From an uncultured Alphaproteobacteria bacterium (GTDB lineage: Bacteria > Pseudomonadota > Alphaproteobacteria > RF32 > CAG-239), in contig CALXTE010000013.1 of assembly GCA_944391345.1 (NCBI GenBank), forward strand, positions 1 through 50,780: a stretch of DNA of 50,780 bases, written 5' to 3'. The notes below the pieces were generated by a model. That model was not told where the DNA came from. It ran no database searches and saw only the letters and a program-made list of their open reading frames with translations. A program made the translations under genes and the position numbers. This document shows positions 1 through 28,821 of the stretch, in pieces (within the stretch, counting starts at the first letter, position 1; every line of letters begins with the position of its first letter).

Positions 1-972
1 TCGGCGCCGGAATGTTCAGCGCCGTTTAAGTGCACGCTGGAAGATTGCTCCGGAAAATTTTATCAAAGCGGCTGTATTGAAGGTTATGTTTGGGACGAAA
101 CGGCAAAAACCTGCACTTGTGAGGGGGTGGATTGGTGCGCGATAACGCCGAGCTGCACGGATTTGGGCTATAAGCAACAGACTTGTAACGGTACTTCAAT
201 CAAATGTCCGTTTGATGTCGATTATTCATTCTGTACCGGCGAGTGCAGCCCGCTGTTTCAAAATACTTGCACCGGCACAGGCTATGCCGGTGGCGTCGGC
301 ACGGCCTGCGGTGGCAAATATACTGAATGCACTTGTGCTGAAGGATATGATTGGAAAGACGGAATTTGTGAATTACAACCAGCAGAATTTGGGCAATGTA
401 ATGGATATGCGGCAAACTGCGCGCTTGGTGATATCTTGTTCAGCGACGGGACTTGCAGCGCGAATACGGTATCAGGCAAAACGCCGATTGCGGTTGTGGT
501 TTATAAATCCGGTAGCTGTGGACAGGCGATGGCATTAAAGTCGTTAGGTGGCTATAAGTGGTCAACGGAATATGTCGATATCTCGGGCTTGACGAACTAT
601 AGTTCATCCTCAGCAGCAAAAAATGATTTTGCAAGCTGTGAAAATAGTGCAAAGATAAGGGCACAAGGAAATAGCAGTACCTATCCGGCGGTATGGGCTG
701 CCTATAACTATACGACAACAGGAACGGAGGCCGGAGATTGGTGCTTGCCGGCAGCAGGAATAATTACCTCAGTATATAATAACCAAGAAGCTATAAACAC
801 AGGGTTTAGCCGCGCAAATGGGACACAATTCACAAATAGCACCCCCGCTTGGTCGTCGTCCGAGTACGATTACCGCTACGCGTGGGGCTCGAACTTTGGC
901 GGCAGTTACGGTTTGGGCTGGTACGATAAGAACTACAACCGCTACGAGGTCCGCCCTGTGATTGAGTTTTAG
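1..972 (+). CDS. Exported Cys-rich protein with DUF1566/C-type-lectin-like C-terminus, 5' truncated by window edge
   Basis: The reading frame is open from base 1, so the gene begins upstream of the window; the GTG at 127 is only an internal valine. The visible part is a Cys-rich region with short EGF-like Cys spacings (for example CTCAEGYDW), then a conserved module starting near GDILFSDGTCS and reaching GDWCLPAAG, and a final module with WSSSEY and VRPVIEF. The last module resembles DUF1566/FISUMP domains, which adopt a C-type-lectin-like fold and are found in secreted or surface proteins. It is the first of three tandem paralogs; 27 nt separate it from the next. Codons 868-942 are hypervariable relative to the paralogs while both flanks are nearly identical in DNA. 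Function is inferred to be surface binding; the ligand is unknown. Confidence 0.8.
   Translation, partial: SAPECSAPFKCTLEDCSGKFYQSGCIEGYVWDETAKTCTCEGVDWCAITPSCTDLGYKQQTCNGTSIKCPFDVDYSFCTGECSPLFQNTCTGTGYAGGVGTACGGKYTECTCAEGYDWKDGICELQPAEFGQCNGYAANCALGDILFSDGTCSANTVSGKTPIAVVVYKSGSCGQAMALKSLGGYKWSTEYVDISGLTNYSSSSAAKNDFASCENSAKIRAQGNSSTYPAVWAAYNYTTTGTEAGDWCLPAAGIITSVYNNQEAINTGFSRANGTQFTNSTPAWSSSEYDYRYAWGSNFGGSYGLGWYDKNYNRYEVRPVIEF
868..942 (+). other. Hypervariable codon block A (DGR-like variable region)
   Basis: Twenty-five codons lying between the invariant GCTTGGTCGTCGTCCGAGTA and TACGAGGTCCGCCC. Compared with blocks at 2410-2481 and 3355-3432, differences fall mostly on codons ending in C (TAC, CGC, GGC, AAC), the pattern expected if AAC codons of a template were mutated at their adenines. 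Confidence 0.5.
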
Positions 973-999
973 AGTAGAGATAAGATAAGGAGAAAAGAG

Positions 1000-2511
1000 A
1001 TGAAGAACAGAAGAAGTTTGATGATTTCGACGATGCTTATGTCTGCTATGGGTGTCGGTGTTGGTGGAATCGGGAATGTGTGGGCGGCGGATGTGCAATG
1101 CCTGAAAACGCCGAGTTGTGAAGAATTAGGTTATACCGAGATTTCGTGTTTTCAGAACAATGGTGTGAAGTGTCCGTACGGCGACAAATATTTTTGCGTC
1201 TGCCCGATGAATTATAAATTTACCTGTACCGGAGAGAATCAAACCGGTGGTGTTGGAGAAAATTGTAATGGGAAATATGCGTCGTGTAATTGTTCCGGCG
1301 GTTTGATGTGGGGCGACGGCGCTTGTGTGGAAAACTGCCCAATTGGCTCGATTTTGTTTAATGACTTTACCTGCAGCGATGATGTCGTCTCCGGCAAAAC
1401 CCCAATCGGCGTGGTGGTCTATAAAGACGGCAAAGGCGCCGGTCAGGCACTAGCACTGAATTCTCTAAGAGCATCATGGAGTGCAGAAAATTCTATTCCT
1501 TCAGGTTTAACTAGCTTTGGTTCTGCTGCAGAGGCTTCTCAAGATTTTGCTAGCTGTAAAAATAGCGCAACAATAAGAGCGGCAGGTGATGAGGCTACTT
1601 ATCCAGCTGCATGGGCTGCGTATGGATATACTACAGCAGGAACCCAAGCGGGAGATTGGTGCCTACCGGCGGCAGGAATATTTACCTCATATTATAACAA
1701 CCAAGATGCGATAAACACAGGCTTTAGCCGAGCAAATGGGACACCATTCACAGACATCACCTTCGCTTGGTCATCGTCCGGTCTTAATTATCTTCATGAG
1801 TGGTATTCATTTTTAGAAGAAGAATATGGAATACAGAGTACAGCTTTTTTTAATACTACCAGTCTTGATGTTCGCCCCGTGATTGGGTTCTGTGATGATG
1901 CGGAGAATTATGTTTATGATGTGGGGACAGATAGTTGTGTGAAAGATAATATTTGTCATTTGGGAAGTATTTTCTATTCAGACAAGACTTGTTCAATGAA
2001 GCTCAAAGACGGTAAAACCCCAATCGGCGTCGTGGTCTATGTTGATGAAAGCGGAACAAGCGGACAGGCGCTAGCACCCAAATCGATAGGCAGCTATGAA
2101 TGGGGAGGATATGGCCCGGATATCTCAACGTTAACGAACTATACATCAACATCGGCAGCATCTAAGGATTATGATAGTTGTGGGAATACGGCAAAAATAA
2201 TCGCGGCGGGAGATAAGAGTAAGTATCCGGCAGCATGGGCGGCACATGAGTATAAAACAGCGGGAACGGAGGCCGGAGATTGGTGCTTGCCGGCAGCAGG
2301 AATATTTACCTCATATTATAACAACCAAGAAGCTATAAACACAGGGTTTAGCCGCGCAAATGGGACACAATTCACAACCAGCACCTACGCTTGGTCGTCG
2401 TCCGAGTACAATGGCCGCAACGCGTGGCGCTCACTCTTTAGCAGCGAGTATGGGTTGACCTACCACTATAAGCATAACAGCTACGAGGTCCGCCCCGTGT
2501 TGGAGTTTTAG
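1000..2511 (+). CDS. Exported Cys-rich protein with two DUF1566/lectin-like modules
   Basis: A protein of 503 residues. An N-terminal signal peptide (Lys/Arg start, hydrophobic core, cleavage near VWAA at about residue 30) indicates export. A Cys-rich segment follows (about 32-110), then two copies of the same ~190-residue module (about 110-305 and 320-503). Each copy has the ILF.D.TCS start, the GDWCLPAAG motif, an AWSSS motif and a VRPV end. The internal copy is diverged in its variable part (WSSSGLNYLHEW) and its NNT-rich codons differ from the NNC-rich codons of the terminal copy. The start is supported by AAGGAG about 8 nt upstream. It lies in tandem with its paralogs on both sides, probably as one operon. 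Exact role unknown; a surface or secreted binding protein is inferred. Confidence 0.85.
   Translation: MKNRRSLMISTMLMSAMGVGVGGIGNVWAADVQCLKTPSCEELGYTEISCFQNNGVKCPYGDKYFCVCPMNYKFTCTGENQTGGVGENCNGKYASCNCSGGLMWGDGACVENCPIGSILFNDFTCSDDVVSGKTPIGVVVYKDGKGAGQALALNSLRASWSAENSIPSGLTSFGSAAEASQDFASCKNSATIRAAGDEATYPAAWAAYGYTTAGTQAGDWCLPAAGIFTSYYNNQDAINTGFSRANGTPFTDITFAWSSSGLNYLHEWYSFLEEEYGIQSTAFFNTTSLDVRPVIGFCDDAENYVYDVGTDSCVKDNICHLGSIFYSDKTCSMKLKDGKTPIGVVVYVDESGTSGQALAPKSIGSYEWGGYGPDISTLTNYTSTSAASKDYDSCGNTAKIIAAGDKSKYPAAWAAHEYKTAGTEAGDWCLPAAGIFTSYYNNQEAINTGFSRANGTQFTTSTYAWSSSEYNGRNAWRSLFSSEYGLTYHYKHNSYEVRPVLEF
2410..2481 (+). other. Hypervariable codon block B (DGR-like variable region)
   Basis: Twenty-four codons at the 3' end of the second paralog, with the same invariant flanks as blocks A and C. 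Variable codons include GGC, CGC, AAC, CTC, AGC, ACC, TAC and CAC. It is one codon shorter than block A and two shorter than block C, so a single common template cannot explain all three without indels. Confidence 0.5.
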
Positions 2512-2535
2512 GGCAGAGATGAGATAAGGAGAAAG

Positions 2536-3462
2536 ATGATGATGAACAGAAAAAGTTTGATGATTTCGACGATGCTTATGTCTGCTATGGGTGTCGATGG
2601 TGTTGTCGGGAATGTTTGGGCGGCGTCATGTGCGGTAACTGACTGTGCGGCGCTTGGTTATACCGAGGCGTATAATTCCAGTGGAAACTGCCTGAAATGT
2701 CCGTTTGGAGAGGCGTATAATTGCGAAAGTGGCTACATCTGCCCCGATAATTATACTCAAGAATGCACCGGAGAAAATATGGTTGCGGTCGGTGAAGCCT
2801 GCAACGGAAAATATGCAGAATGTGCCTGTAAAGAAGGGTATAATCTGGTGGACGGAGAATGTTCTTTGGCTTGGGGAACCTGTTCCGGACTGGCTGCAAA
2901 CTGTTCGCTTGGAAACATCTTGTTCAGTGACGGAACTTGCAGCGCGAATACGGTATCGGGCAAGACGCCGATAGCGGTTGTGGTCTATATCAGCAGTGAG
3001 GGCTGCGGACAAGCGATGGCTTTAAAATCGATAGGCAGCTATGAATGGGGTGGATATGGCACGGATATCTCAACGTTAACAAACTATACATTATCATCAG
3101 CAGCATCTAAGGATTATGATAGCTGTGGGAATACGGCAAAAATAATCGCGGCGGGAGATAAGAGCAAGTATCCGGCAGCCTGGGCGGCATATAATTATAC
3201 GACAACGGGAACGAAGGTCGGAGATTGGTGCCTACCGGCAGCAGGAATATTTACCTCAATCTACAATAACCAAAGCACCATAAACACGGGATTCAGCCGA
3301 GCGGGTGGGACAGAATTCACATCGAGCACCTACGCTTGGTCGTCGTCCGAGTACAGCGGCAACCTCGCGTGGCTCTCAAACTTTAGCGGTAGCTACGGTT
3401 TGTACTACGGCTACAACGCTAAGACTGGCAGCTACGAGGTCCGCCCCGTCCTCGCTTTTTAG
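2536..3462 (+). CDS. Exported Cys-rich protein with single DUF1566/lectin-like module
   Basis: A protein of 308 residues, the third of the tandem family. The signal peptide is nearly identical to that of the preceding gene (SLMISTMLMSAMGV), with cleavage near VWAA. The Cys-rich region includes CPFGEAYNC and ECACKEGYN. One module follows: GNILFSDGTCS, GDWCLPAAG, AWSSSEY and VRPVLAF. Three ATG codons at 2536, 2539 and 2542 follow AAGGAG at 2526-2531; the second or third has the better spacing, so the exact start is uncertain by two codons. DNA around 3028-3190 is almost identical to 2080-2240 of the upstream paralog, suggesting recent duplication or gene conversion. Codons 3355-3432 are the variable block. 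A strong terminator follows. Confidence 0.85.
   Translation: MMMNRKSLMISTMLMSAMGVDGVVGNVWAASCAVTDCAALGYTEAYNSSGNCLKCPFGEAYNCESGYICPDNYTQECTGENMVAVGEACNGKYAECACKEGYNLVDGECSLAWGTCSGLAANCSLGNILFSDGTCSANTVSGKTPIAVVVYISSEGCGQAMALKSIGSYEWGGYGTDISTLTNYTLSSAASKDYDSCGNTAKIIAAGDKSKYPAAWAAYNYTTTGTKVGDWCLPAAGIFTSIYNNQSTINTGFSRAGGTEFTSSTYAWSSSEYSGNLAWLSNFSGSYGLYYGYNAKTGSYEVRPVLAF
3355..3432 (+). other. Hypervariable codon block C (DGR-like variable region)
   Basis: Twenty-six codons at the 3' end of the third paralog between the same invariant flanks. Variable codons are AGC, GGC, AAC, CTC and TAC. Invariant codons within the block (GCG TGG, TCN, TTT, GGT TTG) would keep the fold while the NNC codons vary. 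Confidence 0.5.
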
Positions 3463-5295: not shown

Positions 5296-5333
5296 AAAAA
5301 GGTCGTCTCGCTCAAATGAGGCGGCTTTTTTTT
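5296..5333 (+). terminator. Rho-independent terminator of rpsU
   Basis: Stem GTCGTCTC with GAGGCGGC (two G-T pairs), an 8-nt loop and a run of eight T. Confidence 0.8.
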
Positions 5334-5680
5334 GTTGTGAGTTGAGATGATGTGCGGTGTTGGGGCGGCATGAGTGCGAGGTATGAATGAGATGATGTGT
5401 GGCTAATTTTGTCTAAACGAGAGAGGCGAAATGGGGAGGAAGGTGTGTGTGACTGGGGAGTGGAGAAGCGGCGAAAGGGGCAAGGAAAACTTCGAGTGAA
5501 TGAGATGGAAGAGGATTGGAGAGGTGGAAGAGGGCAGTACAAGTGGTTCCTTAGAGGGGAAAGAGGTGGACAAAGGGCGGTAGAAGAGTTAAATGAGGGG
5601 ATAAGAGGGTGCGAAGAGACTTATTTGATTTCTTGTCTTTTATGTGAATATGCTGTAAAATATTGTTAGTATTCATAGCG
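5334..5680. other. Purine-rich intergenic island
   Basis: About 290 of these bases are strikingly G+A-rich on the plus strand and poor in C, unlike everything around them. A 90-codon open frame (5397-5669) exists, but its translation is a monotonous Arg/Gly/Glu-rich string with no ribosome-binding site, so it is not called as a gene. A 12-nt direct repeat (TGAGATGATGTG) occurs near 5343 and 5388. Confidence 0.5.
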
Positions 5681-6819: not shown

Positions 6820-8160
6820 TTATTCAAAATACTGAATATACAGCCAGCCGCAGCTGATGGCGACGCTTATCAGCATGACCGGTATTGACCATTTCAAAAA
6901 CCGGATGAAGCTGATGTGGTTGCCGTGTCTTTGGGCCAAGCCGGCGACGATAACATTCGCCGAAGCTCCAATCAAGGTTCCGTTGCCGCCGAAGCATGCA
7001 CCGAGGGATAACGCCCACCATACCGGCATCATAGCCTCGCGGCCGCCTAAGTCGGCTTCCATGGATTTTATCATCGGAATCATGGTTGCTACAAACGGAA
7101 TGTTATCAATCGCGCTGGATACCAAAGCCGATACCCAAATGATTAAGAGCATGGTCTTGGATATGCTGCCTTCGGTCATCTTGATGAATTCTTGTCCGAG
7201 CAAGGTTAAAACACCGGTTTCTTCCAAGCCGTAGACAATGACAAACAAGCCTGAGAAAAAGAAGATTGTCGTCCAGTCAACCATGGCCAAGGCTTCAGCC
7301 GTTTTGGCTTCGCGTTCGTCGTGGCGATTGCCCCAAGTGTACAGCAAGAGCAAAACCGCAGCGCCGCAGATGGCAATCGTGCCGTTGGCAATATGCAGAT
7401 GCTCAGCTGAAATGAAGGCCGCAATAACCGTGAATAATACGACCAAGCATTTGGTCAGCAAGCCTTTGTCGGTGATGGCTTTGCGCTCATCAATTTTCAT
7501 AACCTCGGCTCTTTTCTTGAGGTCGGTTTTTAAGTGGCGGCCCCAGAAAAAGTCAAAAATCAGTACAATGACTATCATTGTGGTGATGACAACCGGTGTC
7601 AGCTCTTTGACAAAGTCCATAAATGACAAGTTAAGAGCAGACCCTAGCAAAATATTAGGAGGATCACCGATTAAGGTTGCGGTTCCACCGATATTTGATG
7701 AAAAGATTTCAAGAATCAAATAAGGGTAAGGGTTAACTTTGAGTTTTTTGGTAATTTGAAATGTTACCGGCACAATTAATAAAACGGTGGTAACATTGTC
7801 CAAAAAGGCCGAGAAAAAGGCCGTTACCAAAGCTAATACCGCTAATAATCCACGTGGGTTGGCTCTGACTTTTTTGGCTCCCCAAAAGGCGACGTATTGG
7901 AACATTCCTGATTTTTCGCAGATGCCGACAATCGTCATCATACCAATCAGGAGTGCCAAAGTGTTAAAGTCAATACCTTTTAAGGCTGTAGTCTGAGTTA
8001 AAATTCCTGAAAAAATCATAACGGCAGCCGCTAACAAAGCAACGACGGCGCGGTTTAATTTTTCCGTGAACAGAATCAGATAGCAGATGACCACGATTGC
8101 TGTGGCAACAATCTGCGGATTTAAGCCAAATATCAGATGTGAAGCTGTTGCTGCATCCAT
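6820..8160 (-). CDS. ArsB/NhaD-family ion permease (copy 1)
   Basis: A protein of 446 residues with about 11-12 membrane segments. It belongs to the ArsB/NhaD part of the ion-transporter superfamily (COG1055 type): the paired family motifs are FLDNVTTVLLIVPVTFQI followed by NIGGTATLIGDPPNILLG in the first half, and AIDNIPFVATMIP followed by FGGNGTLIGASANVI in the second half. This inverted-repeat arrangement of two DN..T/P loops is characteristic. Members exchange Na+ and H+ or move arsenite, citrate or other anions; the substrate cannot be read from the sequence, and the lack of ars genes nearby favours Na+/H+ antiport. A close paralog lies at 12585-13919. It stands alone on the minus strand. 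Confidence 0.85.
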   Translation of the reverse strand: MDAATASHLIFGLNPQIVATAIVVICYLILFTEKLNRAVVALLAAAVMIFSGILTQTTALKGIDFNTLALLIGMMTIVGICEKSGMFQYVAFWGAKKVRANPRGLLAVLALVTAFFSAFLDNVTTVLLIVPVTFQITKKLKVNPYPYLILEIFSSNIGGTATLIGDPPNILLGSALNLSFMDFVKELTPVVITTMIVIVLIFDFFWGRHLKTDLKKRAEVMKIDERKAITDKGLLTKCLVVLFTVIAAFISAEHLHIANGTIAICGAAVLLLLYTWGNRHDEREAKTAEALAMVDWTTIFFFSGLFVIVYGLEETGVLTLLGQEFIKMTEGSISKTMLLIIWVSALVSSAIDNIPFVATMIPMIKSMEADLGGREAMMPVWWALSLGACFGGNGTLIGASANVIVAGLAQRHGNHISFIRFLKWSIPVMLISVAISCGWLYIQYFE

Positions 8161-12584: not shown

Positions 12585-13919
12585 ATGCACGGAGCAGAAT
12601 TTGTTTCGCCGGAGGCGGTTATTTTTGGCTGGAATCCGATGATTGTGGCCAGTGTTATTTTAATCATCAGCTATATTATTTTATTTACAGAAAAAGTTAA
12701 TCGTGCCGTTGTGGCGCTGACTGGTGCTTGTGTTATGATCTTTTGCGGGGTGTTGACGCAAAGCACGGCTATTCAGGGAATTGATTTTAATACCTTGGCG
12801 CTGCTTATCGGTATGATGATCGTGGTCGGAATTTGTGAAAAGTCCGGCATGTTTCAATATGTGGCCATTTGGGGGGCACAGCAAGTTAAGGCCAGTCCGC
12901 GCGGATTGATGGCGGTTTTGGCGCTGGTTACGGCAGTGTTCTCGGCGTTTTTGGATAATGTGACGACGGTGCTTTTAATCGTTCCGGTCACTTTCCAGAT
13001 TACGCGTAAGCTTCGTATTAATCCTTATCCTTATTTGATTTTGGAGATTTTTGCCTCGAATATCGGTGGAACGGCGACCTTAATCGGTGATCCGCCTAAT
13101 ATTTTGCTGGGGTCTGCTCTTAATCTGTCATTTATGGATTTTCTCTATGAGCTGACTCCTGTTGTGACGGTCACTATGCTTGTTCTTATCGGGGTTTTTG
13201 ATTTTGCTTACGGGCGGCATATGAAAACCGATATGAAGCGTCGTGCCGAGGTTATGCGTATTGATAAGCGCCAGTCGATTACCGACAAGGTTTTGCTGAC
13301 AAAATGTTTGGTGGTTTTGTTTGGCGTTATCTTGGGCTTTATTGGTGCTGAGCATTTGCATATTGCAAACGGTACTATCGCTTTGTTTGGTGCGACAATC
13401 GCGATGTTGCTCTATACGTGGGGCAATCGTCATGATGAGCGTGAAGCCAAAACAGCGGAAATTTTTACGCTGGTTGACTGGACGACCATCTTTTTCTTTG
13501 CCGGGTTGTTTGCCATTGTTTATGGCTTGGAAGAAACAGGCGTGCTCCTCTTGCTCGGAAATAAGTTTGTTGAGCTGACTGATGGCAGTATTGATAAAGC
13601 CGTGTTCCTCGTTATGTGGGTATCAGCCTTTGTTTCAACCGCGATTGACAATATCCCGTTTGTGGCAACCATGATTCCGGTTTTGAAATCCATGGAGCCG
13701 GGGATGGGCGGTCGCGAAGCCATGATGCCGGTTTGGTGGGCTTTGTCCCTCGGGTCATGCTTTGGCGGAAACGGCTCGCTTATTGCTGCTTCGGCCAATG
13801 TTATTGTGGCCGGTATGGCGCAACGCGAAGGAACGCCAATCTCGTTTATCGGGTTTTTGAAGTGGTCAATTCCGGTGATGATTGGCTCGGTGCTCATTGC
13901 ATCACTCAAGTTTATGTGA
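12585..13919 (+). CDS. ArsB/NhaD-family ion permease (copy 2)
   Basis: A protein of 444 residues, closely similar over its full length to the permease encoded at 6820-8160, including FLDNVTTVLLIVPVTFQI, NIGGTATLIGDPPNILLG, AIDNIPFVATMIP and FGGNGSLIAASANVI. It is slightly shorter at the C-terminus, and the second motif has Ala where copy 1 has Gly (LIAAS versus LIGAS). The SD AAGGAG precedes the ATG. The two copies lie on opposite strands about 4.4 kb apart, which points to an old duplication with retention of both, perhaps with different expression or ion preference. Confidence 0.85.
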   Translation: MHGAEFVSPEAVIFGWNPMIVASVILIISYIILFTEKVNRAVVALTGACVMIFCGVLTQSTAIQGIDFNTLALLIGMMIVVGICEKSGMFQYVAIWGAQQVKASPRGLMAVLALVTAVFSAFLDNVTTVLLIVPVTFQITRKLRINPYPYLILEIFASNIGGTATLIGDPPNILLGSALNLSFMDFLYELTPVVTVTMLVLIGVFDFAYGRHMKTDMKRRAEVMRIDKRQSITDKVLLTKCLVVLFGVILGFIGAEHLHIANGTIALFGATIAMLLYTWGNRHDEREAKTAEIFTLVDWTTIFFFAGLFAIVYGLEETGVLLLLGNKFVELTDGSIDKAVFLVMWVSAFVSTAIDNIPFVATMIPVLKSMEPGMGGREAMMPVWWALSLGSCFGGNGSLIAASANVIVAGMAQREGTPISFIGFLKWSIPVMIGSVLIASLKFM

Positions 13920-25345: not shown

Positions 25346-26038
25346 ATGTATATTTGGGTCGTTCTTGCTACTTTTATTGTTGCGCTGGCTGCTTTTAATT
25401 TGCCGGTGCGTCCTGATATGCGTAGTGTTTATGTTGAGCCTCAGGCAGAAGCCGCTATAACAAGACTTTATTTACAACACAAAGCGGCTAAGTCCGCAGT
25501 TTTGGACGAGGTTAAAACAAACGGCGTGTATATGAGCGGAGAAGTGGCCGTTGATGATATCAGAAACTTTTTGCCTCTGGGATTTGAACTTGATGATGAA
25601 TATGAAAGTTTGGATGTGACCGAAAGAAATCATTCTTATTTGTATTGTTTAGACAGATCATCTTCGAATTTATCAGTTGAAAGTCCACAGTGCAGCGGTG
25701 ATTTTGTGCCTTATCTTATTTCTTATGGTTGTATACCCGATAAGTGGCGCAATGTTCGTAATGGCAAGCCCAGTAATGATCTAATCGGGGCTATGAATAA
25801 TGTTTTGGGATATGGTGGGCAGTTTGGCTATTCTCAGGAGATTGAGCCTGTACAGAGCGATAAAAATATTTTGGGATCATCAATGGGAATCAATATTCGG
25901 GATAAGTCTTGGTTTTCTATTCCGCAGTTTATTATTTCACAAGATAAGGGTGCAAATAGTTTTTATAATGTTTGCGGTGACGGTGGCGAATGTGATTATT
26001 GTTTGGTTTATATGACCATTCTTGGTGCAGTTCATTAA
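25346..26038 (+). CDS. Exported or membrane-anchored protein of unknown function (pilin cluster)
   Basis: A protein of 230 residues with one N-terminal membrane segment (IWVVLATFIVALAAF, about residues 3-17) and an extracytoplasmic remainder with several Cys, including CGDGGECDYC near the end. It resembles a minor pilin in outline, but the glycine-before-cleavage site of prepilins is not present. It sits 11 nt before the pilin-like giant gene, so the two are probably co-expressed. No family is recognised. Confidence 0.7.
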   Translation: MYIWVVLATFIVALAAFNLPVRPDMRSVYVEPQAEAAITRLYLQHKAAKSAVLDEVKTNGVYMSGEVAVDDIRNFLPLGFELDDEYESLDVTERNHSYLYCLDRSSSNLSVESPQCSGDFVPYLISYGCIPDKWRNVRNGKPSNDLIGAMNNVLGYGGQFGYSQEIEPVQSDKNILGSSMGINIRDKSWFSIPQFIISQDKGANSFYNVCGDGGECDYCLVYMTILGAVH

Positions 26039-26049
26039 GGAGAATCGTG

Positions 26050-28821
26050 ATGTGGAAAAAAAATAATGGGAAAGAATCAGCAGGAAGCCTTATGATTGAG
26101 GCTATGGCCATGCTGGCTCTCATTGCGATGGTAACCCCTATTTTATATAAAAAAGCGGCTGAAAGAACAACAGAACTAAAAGACATTAATGCTGCCAGTC
26201 AGATGCGTGTTATGATTTCGGCCGTTGATAATTATATTAAAGATCATTATTCAGAAATTTCATCCGGTGAAACTGTTGATACACAATGCCCGGTGTCGCC
26301 TCAACAAGGTTATAATGAATTTCAAGGGAATGATGATGCTGCAGTTGTTATTACTAACCTTGCGCATCTTTGCGAATATTTTCCGTATGGTTTTATTGAT
26401 AATGCCGGAAATGTGCGTGGCAGCAATATGTTTTCTGACTATCAATTGGCGATTGCCAAAAAGGTTTCGCCTTCAGGGTCAGGTGATGCTTCTTTAACCG
26501 GGTTTTTGTTGACAGAGCCGCGGACGCCTTTGCCGATGCTTCGTGCTTCTCGTATTGCTTCTATGATTGGAAGTAATGGCGGTTATACGGAAGGAAATGA
26601 GGCCAATGGTGTGCAGGGTGTGTGGAAAATTGATGATCTTACTACGCTTGGTTTATCTCCTCAATCTGATGGGTCAATTATTGCAGCATCTTTACAGTCG
26701 ATTAATAAAGGTTCTGTTATGAATGAAGATGTTTTGTATCGTAATAATATGGGAGATACAGAGCTTAATACCATGAATGTTCCTTTGCTTATGAATGATA
26801 TTATTGATATGCAGGGAAATGATATAGATAATGTCGGAAATTTGATTGCCGATAGTGCTGATATTGCCAACCAGCTAACTGCCGGAAGTGCGGATGTAAC
26901 CGGTAATTTGACTGCCGGAAGTGCGGATGTGGCCGGTAATTTGTCGGCAGGCAGCGCAAATGTTTCTGATAAGTTGACCGCCGGTTCGGCTGATGTTACC
27001 GGTAACTTTACGGCTGCCGGTGGCAAGTTTAATGTCGACGGTAGCACTGGTAATACAACAGTAAGCGGTGATTTTACCGTTCAGGGCGGAAGTGATGATA
27101 AGTTTAAGGTTGAGGCGGCTACAGGAAATACCACAATCAGCGGAACAGCGACAATTGCCGGAGATACAACAATTGGTGGTGATGATAAGTTTAAGGTTGA
27201 GGCGGAAACTGGAAATACCACAATCGGTGGTGATTTATCAGTGGCCGGCACTACAACGACAGAAATGCTGCGCGTTAATCAGACGTCCTCTTTTGGTGGA
27301 GATGCTACTTTTGAAAGTAATGTAGATATTTATAATAACCTTAATGTCGGTGGAGCTATTACGACGCCTAATCTTTTGTCAAAAACGCTAAAAGGTGGTT
27401 TGATAGGCATTGATTTTTCAAGCAGTCCTGAAAATGATCAATATGTGTTTACAGCGCAATGGGGTAACGGAAATCCCGATAACAGTAAAGTTCTTATGGG
27501 GCCAAATGATGAGGTGATTGTTGGCAATAAGTCGGTTGAGATGAATTATGCCGGTACTCAAATCGAGATGGCGCCTTATGGCGGATCGGTCATGATTGCT
27601 CCCGGTGGCACTACAAGTCCTGAGCTTTATGTTACTCAGGGTCAAACCTTGGTCGATAACGGTAGCTTTGTGGTATCTACCGGACCTTCTACGGATTTAA
27701 ATCAATTTCAGACAGATGATGATCAGATTGACTTTTTTGTAAAGCCGTCTACGGAGGACAGTATCCTCACCGTTACTAATACAAATGAACAAACAAAGGG
27801 TTCTGTTCAGGTGCGGCAAGGTGTGATCGAGGTGGCTTCAAACTATGATGATACGCATGCGACTTTGCCTAGCGGGACAGGCTATATTTTGGCTGATCGT
27901 TTTATTGATCAAAAAGCTTGGGAAACTTCTGCAAACCCAGATGTTTCCGGTATTTCGGGGTCAGCAACGCCGGCGCCTGACTATGATGCTTATCAGGTTA
28001 ATCCGGCTTACACTTCGGTTATGCATGATATTAAGCTCACCACACGCGGCGGTGCTCGCTTGAGCGATATTTTGCCGGACTTTATAAATAAAGGTATTTA
28101 TGTGGTTGATAACAGCTATGATGAAAATGTTCCGTATTGGGGCAATCTGGATGTTTCTGTTTCCGGCGGTGTGCTAAAAGCCGATATTAAAAGCGGTGCT
28201 GTTTGTTCCAGCCACACTTGTTGGACGTCTCCTTGGTTAGGGTTGATTCCGACGCCGTTGTGTCCTCCGGGATATGCTCGCGTTGTGACAATTTCTCCGG
28301 CCGGTTGGGCGATGGGGCAGGCCGGTATTCCGGGGTCAACTATCGGTAATAATCGACAAGACTTGTGGACGCCTGATTATCCGAAGAATCCTAATGATTA
28401 TGCCGAAGGTGACGTAAATGCTCCTTATCCGCTGTATTTCCAAAAGAGTACTTGGTTGCGTGCAAATCTTTATCCGCACAGTAATTCCGGTGAGTTTATG
28501 GGATGGAGTGCTATTATGGGCTTTATGTATCCTTATGCTTATTATACCGATTATATTAATGATTTGGGATTGGGCAGTGAATTAACCGGCGGTAGTGCTG
28601 ATAGCGAAAAAGTTATTTGGAATTTGTTCCCGGTTTTGAAGCGTCAACTTGAAGCCTATGTGACTGTATATTGCTATTTTGATCGTACTAATAGCCGCTA
28701 TGATCCGGCTTATGTTGATAAGTATGACCAACTTAATGATTACAGAACTTCTTATACGAAAGAAGGCGCATATGTCGATAGACTGAATGATCCTGAACTT
28801 AGTTATGATGATATTTGGTAA
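26050..28821 (+). CDS. Giant type IV pilin-like protein with repeat stalk
   Basis: A protein of 923 residues. The N-terminus KESAG-SLMIEAMAMLALIAM is a class III prepilin-type leader: Gly before the cleavage site, Glu at position +5 and a hydrophobic helix. An N-terminal globular part with paired Cys follows (about 20-260), then glycine/threonine-rich beta-type repeats (about 266-430; five copies of an 11-residue T-A-G-S-A-D-V-x-G-N-L unit), then a large C-terminal domain with CSSHTCW and CPPGYARVVTISPAGW, which recalls plasmid PilV pilus-tip adhesins. The ATG at 26050 follows AAGGAG by 7 nt. Surface attachment is inferred; no shufflon recombinase lies nearby. Confidence 0.75.
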   Translation: MWKKNNGKESAGSLMIEAMAMLALIAMVTPILYKKAAERTTELKDINAASQMRVMISAVDNYIKDHYSEISSGETVDTQCPVSPQQGYNEFQGNDDAAVVITNLAHLCEYFPYGFIDNAGNVRGSNMFSDYQLAIAKKVSPSGSGDASLTGFLLTEPRTPLPMLRASRIASMIGSNGGYTEGNEANGVQGVWKIDDLTTLGLSPQSDGSIIAASLQSINKGSVMNEDVLYRNNMGDTELNTMNVPLLMNDIIDMQGNDIDNVGNLIADSADIANQLTAGSADVTGNLTAGSADVAGNLSAGSANVSDKLTAGSADVTGNFTAAGGKFNVDGSTGNTTVSGDFTVQGGSDDKFKVEAATGNTTISGTATIAGDTTIGGDDKFKVEAETGNTTIGGDLSVAGTTTTEMLRVNQTSSFGGDATFESNVDIYNNLNVGGAITTPNLLSKTLKGGLIGIDFSSSPENDQYVFTAQWGNGNPDNSKVLMGPNDEVIVGNKSVEMNYAGTQIEMAPYGGSVMIAPGGTTSPELYVTQGQTLVDNGSFVVSTGPSTDLNQFQTDDDQIDFFVKPSTEDSILTVTNTNEQTKGSVQVRQGVIEVASNYDDTHATLPSGTGYILADRFIDQKAWETSANPDVSGISGSATPAPDYDAYQVNPAYTSVMHDIKLTTRGGARLSDILPDFINKGIYVVDNSYDENVPYWGNLDVSVSGGVLKADIKSGAVCSSHTCWTSPWLGLIPTPLCPPGYARVVTISPAGWAMGQAGIPGSTIGNNRQDLWTPDYPKNPNDYAEGDVNAPYPLYFQKSTWLRANLYPHSNSGEFMGWSAIMGFMYPYAYYTDYINDLGLGSELTGGSADSEKVIWNLFPVLKRQLEAYVTVYCYFDRTNSRYDPAYVDKYDQLNDYRTSYTKEGAYVDRLNDPELSYDDIW
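26845..27009 (+). repeat. Five tandem 33-bp coding repeats in the pilin-like gene
   Basis: Copies at 26845, 26878, 26911, 26944 and 26977; the second and third are nearly identical. They encode 11-residue units (TAGSADVTGNL type). A larger, partly repeated unit with GATGATAAGTTTAAGGTTGA lies at about 27093 and 27181. Slippage could change stalk length. Confidence 0.8.

Follow-up and report, generated by a model that had tools for sequence, protein, structure and literature searches.

Variable ends of three tandem lectin-like genes point to a diversity-generating retroelement working in trans in an uncultured alphaproteobacterium

Three tandem genes with variable ends

We analysed a stretch of 50,780 nucleotides (referred to as the window) from an uncultured alphaproteobacterium of the CAG-239 lineage, which is contig C13 (CALXTE010000013.1) of a 1.63-Mb genome assembled in 44 contigs (GCA_944391345.1, G000 in the coordinates below). 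Three tandem genes at its start encode cysteine-rich proteins, each ending in a lectin-like domain, and each gene contains a variable block close to its 3' end. From comparisons within this genome and with its relatives, we consider it very probable that the three blocks are the variable repeats (VRs) of a cellular diversity-generating retroelement (DGR) that works in trans. The features, with the VRs as predicted here, are as follows.

1-972, forward strand: target gene 1, an open reading frame (ORF) with its start beyond the window edge, a cysteine-rich N-terminal part and a C-terminal lectin-like domain
1000-2511, forward strand: target gene 2, an ORF with two lectin-like domains (profile matches at 1645-1890 and 2269-2508)
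2536-3462, forward strand: target gene 3, an ORF with a C-terminal lectin-like domain (profile match at 3214-3459)
846-959, forward strand: VR of gene 1, 33 codons; its template is absent from the assembly
2388-2498, forward strand: VR of gene 2, 32 codons; the clear DGR target of the window
3333-3449, forward strand: VR of gene 3, 34 codons; no template identified
about 1768-1869, forward strand: block in the first lectin-like domain of gene 2, not template-like
946-959, forward strand: right arm of gene 1, GC-rich, with an edge like the initiation of mutagenic homing (IMH) signal
2485-2498, forward strand: right arm of gene 2, GC-rich, with an IMH-like edge, the same as in the template
3436-3449, forward strand: right arm of gene 3, GC-rich, with an IMH-like edge

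In all three genes, the block is preceded by an identical left arm of 19 bp (CGCTTGGTCGTCGTCCGAG; 846-864, 2388-2406 and 3333-3351) and ends in a GC-rich right arm of 14 bp (GAGGTCCGCCC[C/T]GT), which we take to resemble the homing signal of DGRs; between the arms, the sequences of the three genes differ. Codons ending in C account for 16 of 27 (gene 1), 14 of 26 (gene 2) and 18 of 28 (gene 3) codons of the blocks, compared to 19-23% C at third positions outside the blocks of the same genes. The block lengths of 33, 32 and 34 codons were counted from the TGG codon to the codon before GTCCGC. Differing blocks with near-identical flanks, a bias towards NNC codons and lengths unequal by one to two codons had all been described in an earlier reading of the window made from its letters alone (the sequence-only reading), and each of these descriptions is borne out by the counts.

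The domain is not limited to the window: its profile detects 44 copies in this genome and between 1 and 81 copies in 18 of the 21 genomes searched with it. The VRs sit at the C-terminal end of the lectin-like domain, for which matches to known families are weak. Genes 1 and 3 match Lcl_C/DUF1566 and Lcl_C with E-values of 0.018 and 0.0025, respectively, both below the curated cut-off, and only five of eight domain members have such a match (best E 3e-4). A PDB search with the profile of the target domain gave chance-level matches only (best E 0.29). A lectin fold and a surface location are presumed for the target proteins. One domain copy, G000:C5:987-1226, carries a single in-frame TGA.

Reverse transcriptase, template repeats and adenine-restricted differences

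The sequence-only reading had noted that the window holds neither a reverse transcriptase (RT) nor a template, and had proposed a genome-wide search for an RT of the DGR clade and an AAC-rich template as a test of its DGR reading. Both were found, on other contigs. The single PF00078 match of the whole genome lies on C37 and none lies within the window. The RT gene (C37:572-1999) is located directly behind an Avd gene (C37:140-568, 142 aa), with no template repeat (TR) in between, and both frames are open. The RT matches RVT_1 (E 5e-17), and among PDB sequences it is closest to 8ub7, the RT of the Bordetella phage DGR (3.5e-29, versus 5e-7 for a group II maturase). It contains YVDD as well as the motif IGNLTSQ, in agreement with the DGR motif (I/V/L)GxxxSQ as defined in PMC3521204. 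The Avd protein matches the bAvd model PF22296 above its cut-off, phrog_3206, annotated as 'Avd protein of DGR', and, below that model's cut-off, NF033474 (E 1e-15).

A prophage origin was considered and rejected: a scan of IMG/VR with the RT, which reaches close relatives only, gave four pattern-matching stretches, none of which was confirmed, and the 108 phage records with relatives of the RT all had less than 60% identity. Among the phage matches listed, annotated Bacteroides phages share 43-45% identity with the C37 RT.

A DNA search of the genome with the block of gene 2 returned 34 places at E-values up to 10, some of them by chance. Two of them lie on contig C23 and are AAC-rich, non-coding TRs, a complete one at 216-345 and one at 1-70 that is cut by the contig end; in the frame of the VRs, no start codon lies ahead of them. 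When contig C13 was searched with the complete template, three places were found, all of which are the variable blocks of genes 1-3. Over 96 nt (G000:C23:225-320), the gene 2 VR has changes relative to the complete template at 14 of the 37 adenines and at none of 59 other positions (Fisher p 2.6e-7); as the template was found via the gene 2 block, the similarity is selected, but the placement of the differences is not. Seventeen blocks were compared with the 3' part (45 nt) of the template that is cut by the contig end. Those at C18:26146, C23:504 and C23:11796 differ from it at 7, 6 and 10 of 22 adenines, respectively, and each at none of 23 other positions. With gene 2, differences at adenines only are established for four VRs in this genome. 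A further block comes close, with changes at 7/22 adenines and 1/23 other positions.

A broader comparison was made with the template 5' part, scored over codons 1-12 and 15-16 (13 adenine and 29 non-adenine sites). Across 70 VR-type cores, drawn from this genome and from two of its close relatives, adenine sites differ in 439 of 910 cases and other sites in 141 of 2030, whereby the sites in this pooled count are not independent; 54 of the 70 cores have at most two changes at the 29 non-adenine sites. This genome contributes 24 cores, namely those from the fetched stretches with arms in the form required by the script and not all 44 copies. Fifteen of them have at most two non-adenine changes, and ten have none together with 5-7 changes at the 13 adenines. 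The counts for the window genes are 0/29 non-adenine and 6/13 adenine changes for gene 1, 0/29 non-adenine changes for gene 2, and 1/29 and 6/13 changes, respectively, for gene 3. The VR of gene 1 can also be aligned with one at C26:6978 of equal length and with a common TGG codon. The 17 variable columns fall on codon positions 1, 2 and 3 in the numbers 11, 6 and 0, as expected if the two have a common template, and both appear to derive from one template not seen in the assembly. For gene 3 and two equal-length VRs of a relative, there are 15 first-, 15 second- and 5 third-position variable columns.

The change is also localised. The 24 cores were compared together with 150 bp upstream, and 28 pairs have flanks that are at least 85% identical. 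In all 28, similarity over the first 33 variable nucleotides falls below that of the flank (median 0.68 versus 0.88), and in the extreme pair the flank is 99% and the variable part 70% identical. The block in the first domain of gene 2 lacks the NNC pattern, has an altered right arm and differs from the scored template part at 9/29 non-adenine and 9/13 adenine sites; it may be a frozen VR. The first domain of a paralogue at C18:1768 is more template-like (4/29 non-adenine mismatches).

Copying and homing themselves we infer from these sequence patterns. A single RT with its Avd partner, encoded on C37, would copy short non-coding template RNAs made elsewhere, on C23, and would misread template adenines, and the resulting cDNA would replace the matching end block in any of the many paralogous lectin-like genes. 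If templates differ in length but have identical edges, unequal block lengths would follow, which is what we propose for genes 1 and 3. The DGR reading, including the suggestion of a remote, trans-acting system with several templates, is supported by the RT and Avd genes on C37, the templates on C23, the adenine-only differences of gene 2 and, as described below, the tandem TRs of several lengths in relatives.

Elsewhere in the window, inspection by eye pointed to a large protein whose start is hydrophobic and resembles that of pilins (25999-28821), two similar ion-transporter-like permeases (6820-8160, reverse strand, and 12585-13919, forward strand) and an oddly composed, G/A-rich stretch in which no convincing gene was seen (5330-5640).

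Template arrays and leader RNAs in related genomes

Relatives carry TRs in tandem arrays. By leader matches, the arrays comprise seven TRs in G007, the largest number, four in G019 (main locus), three in G017 and two each in G001 and G005. In G006 (a contig of BRZ_AG bin71, locus L109), the order is Avd, three TRs of 38, 35 and 35 codons, and RT. The TRs parsed by the script are 30-38 codons long and always comprise whole codons; those of G001, G012, G017, G019 and G020 are outside this length parsing. In G006, the VR beside Avd differs from the 38-codon TR at 20/40 adenines and 0/74 other positions, one on another contig differs from a 35-codon TR at 19/38 and 0/67, respectively, and a third VR has 17/38 adenine and 4/67 non-adenine differences. 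In G005, an Avd-like ORF and two TRs are found on a contig separate from that of the RT (L221, G005:C26:28700-30300, and L230, G005:C30), and from this layout the parts of the DGR system seem to be separable. At L112 (7724-7921), a contig filed as Actinomycetota carries a related RT together with a TR-like stretch and, as judged by eye, a DUF1566-like target; the leader match there is weak (E 0.07).

Every TR with upstream sequence is preceded on its 5' side by a conserved stretch, 107-145 nt long as cut, which we refer to as the leader. From 23 distinct leaders, RNAalifold predicted 22 pairs, and 12 of these pairs show double changes. Compared to shuffled alignments, 96.6% versus 82.6% of the cells are paired, and there are 67 double-change cells versus 18.3, a number reached by none of 500 shuffles. 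Pairs with a double change number 12 versus 8.6 (reached in 1/500), and the weakest measure, further pair types, gives 32 versus 27.7 (19/500). Sliding the partner strand gives at most 20 double-change cells, a comparison in which the structure is favoured over the slid versions by its derivation from the tested alignment; the leaders are also related to each other. Rfam gave no matches for the leader (four sources). A covariance model detects leaders in 13 of 57 genomes, the window's genome among them, and a strong RT match (E <1e-90, a cut-off of our own) is present in 14 of the 57. Twelve of the 13 leader-bearing genomes have such an RT match, the exception being G029 with a leader and no RT match; this rate of co-occurrence is not independent, because the model was built from leaders in ten of the 13 genomes. 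In the RT-bearing G002 and G003 the model found no leader, and their templates may be unassembled, since C23 of the window's genome also starts inside a template. Second leader copies are present at G012:C185, beside a second RT match, and at G019:C72.

Within arrays, the next leader motif begins 10-44 nt past the right edge of a TR. By eye, no full leader follows the last TRs among those printed; 3' of the last TR, there is a leader-like first hairpin in G005 and other hairpins in G001 and the window's genome. Based on this arrangement, recognition may lie 5' of the template, where the leader would recruit or bound the RT-Avd complex. Alternatively, the leader might serve the preceding TR, as each TR followed by another in an array has the next leader on its 3' side, or it might act as a cDNA stop or a processing signal.

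Alternative explanations and comparison with known DGRs

Several observations weigh against a DGR that acts on these genes in trans. When 26 genome copies were compared ungapped and at any length with the 96 nt of the complete template, 25 had 6-35 non-adenine mismatches, so that this template cannot be theirs as a whole. Of the 17 blocks compared with the partial template, 14 have non-adenine changes, one at 1/23 positions and the other 13 at 2-15/23. Because of these mismatches to both C23 templates, most VRs would need other templates or have decayed, and no template for gene 1 or gene 3 was found in the assembly. At the scored 5' part, 16 of the 70 cores have at least three mismatches at the 29 non-adenine sites, some of which arise via indels. 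In the relatives, 12 of 15 G006 cores, taken from the loci of 30 of 40 matches, have lengths without an assembled TR, and of three G007 cores, two differ from the best of five parsed TRs at 9/78 and 11/78 non-adenine positions, while the third matches none of the parsed TRs in length. Lastly, the comparison of the window locus across species failed to single out the VRs because the entire target genes diverge, with 55-92% identity per 100-bp segment (51% in one edge segment) compared to 87-98% for a pfk stretch; recombination among paralogues therefore acts as well.

This divergence over the full length of the target genes could be taken to mean that gene conversion among paralogues accounts for the blocks alone, without any retroelement activity. 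Two paralogue pairs with flanks that are 98-99% identical have VRs of unequal length, which fits template exchange and would equally result from recombination between paralogues. Yet conversion among genes does not account for a non-coding template that differs from gene 2 at adenines only, for the presence of an RT-Avd pair, or for variable columns between gene 1 and its C26 counterpart that avoid the third codon position, and we regard it as most improbable as the sole process. Diversifying selection, if it acted on ordinary mutations in a tip that binds a ligand, would place variation at the protein ends, where the blocks are, and would agree with the variable columns of the gene 1 family, nearly all of which fall on first and second codon positions. 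However, the template, the adenine restriction and the in-frame length classes are left unexplained by such selection, and we give it next to no credence. A system that once diversified these genes and is now inactive, with VRs that drift, has somewhat more in its favour: some copies hold many non-adenine changes, and the RT-negative congeners G004, G008 and G011 retain 29, 19 and 51 domain copies, respectively. Decay would add non-adenine changes, though, whereas ten of the 24 cores of this genome have none alongside their adenine changes, and the RT and Avd frames are open. We therefore think a relic unlikely and favour a DGR that diversifies these genes in trans.

More tentatively, and with somewhat less than even confidence, we propose that this DGR is a two-layer diversifier. 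Its templates, interchangeable and unequal in length, would be organised in tandem, self-contained units, each consisting of a folded 5' leader and a TR, and dozens of dispersed targets would choose a scaffold length on top of the scrambling of adenines; recognition would lie on the 5' side of the template, so that the RNA layout would be the reverse of the one in the phage DGR that has been studied. If templates are indeed interchangeable, one enzyme would provide a protein repertoire with diversity in both sequence and length, something less like a single switch than like an immune repertoire on a small scale. The short, covarying and repeated leader offers a concrete handle on how the RTs of DGRs find their templates.

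The DGR of the Bordetella phage BPP-1 (bRT-Avd-TR-VR) likewise combines an RT and Avd with adenine-restricted change from TR to VR in a target gene, and it has a GC-rich right edge like the blocks described here. According to PMC12875486, a folded spacer 3' of the BPP-1 TR recruits bRT-Avd and primes cDNA synthesis, whereas the covarying fold found here lies 5' of each TR. Multiple VRs, systems with two TRs and remote targets have already been published (PMC3521204, PMC6642488, PMC4891356, PMC10907252). Stenotrophomonas sp. SKA14 is similar in having multiple TRs, multiple VRs and DUF1566 targets: its two TRs are accompanied by six VRs, each set in a different ORF, and five of the six are in DUF1566 proteins (PMC6642488). 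In our case, up to seven tandem leader-bearing templates occur (G007), and in the window's genome the RT and the templates are on separate contigs and face 44 domain copies. In Treponema denticola, one RT also serves remote targets with a lectin-type fold, but the table rows consulted in PMC4891356 give one TR, and the number of target genes ranges from two to seven among the isolates. Thiohalocapsa PB-PSB1 resembles our system in having cellular DGRs with a proposed trans activity, 15 targets and 21 VRs; these belong to nine loci of four classes, as opposed to one RT in the assembly and one paralogous target family here (PMC10907252). Tandem leader-TR arrays, or a DGR of this lineage, did not appear in the literature searched, which excludes preprints and most subscription papers. 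The array-plus-leader layout at such a scale looks new among DGRs, and it is in this layout and scale that the novelty of the system lies.

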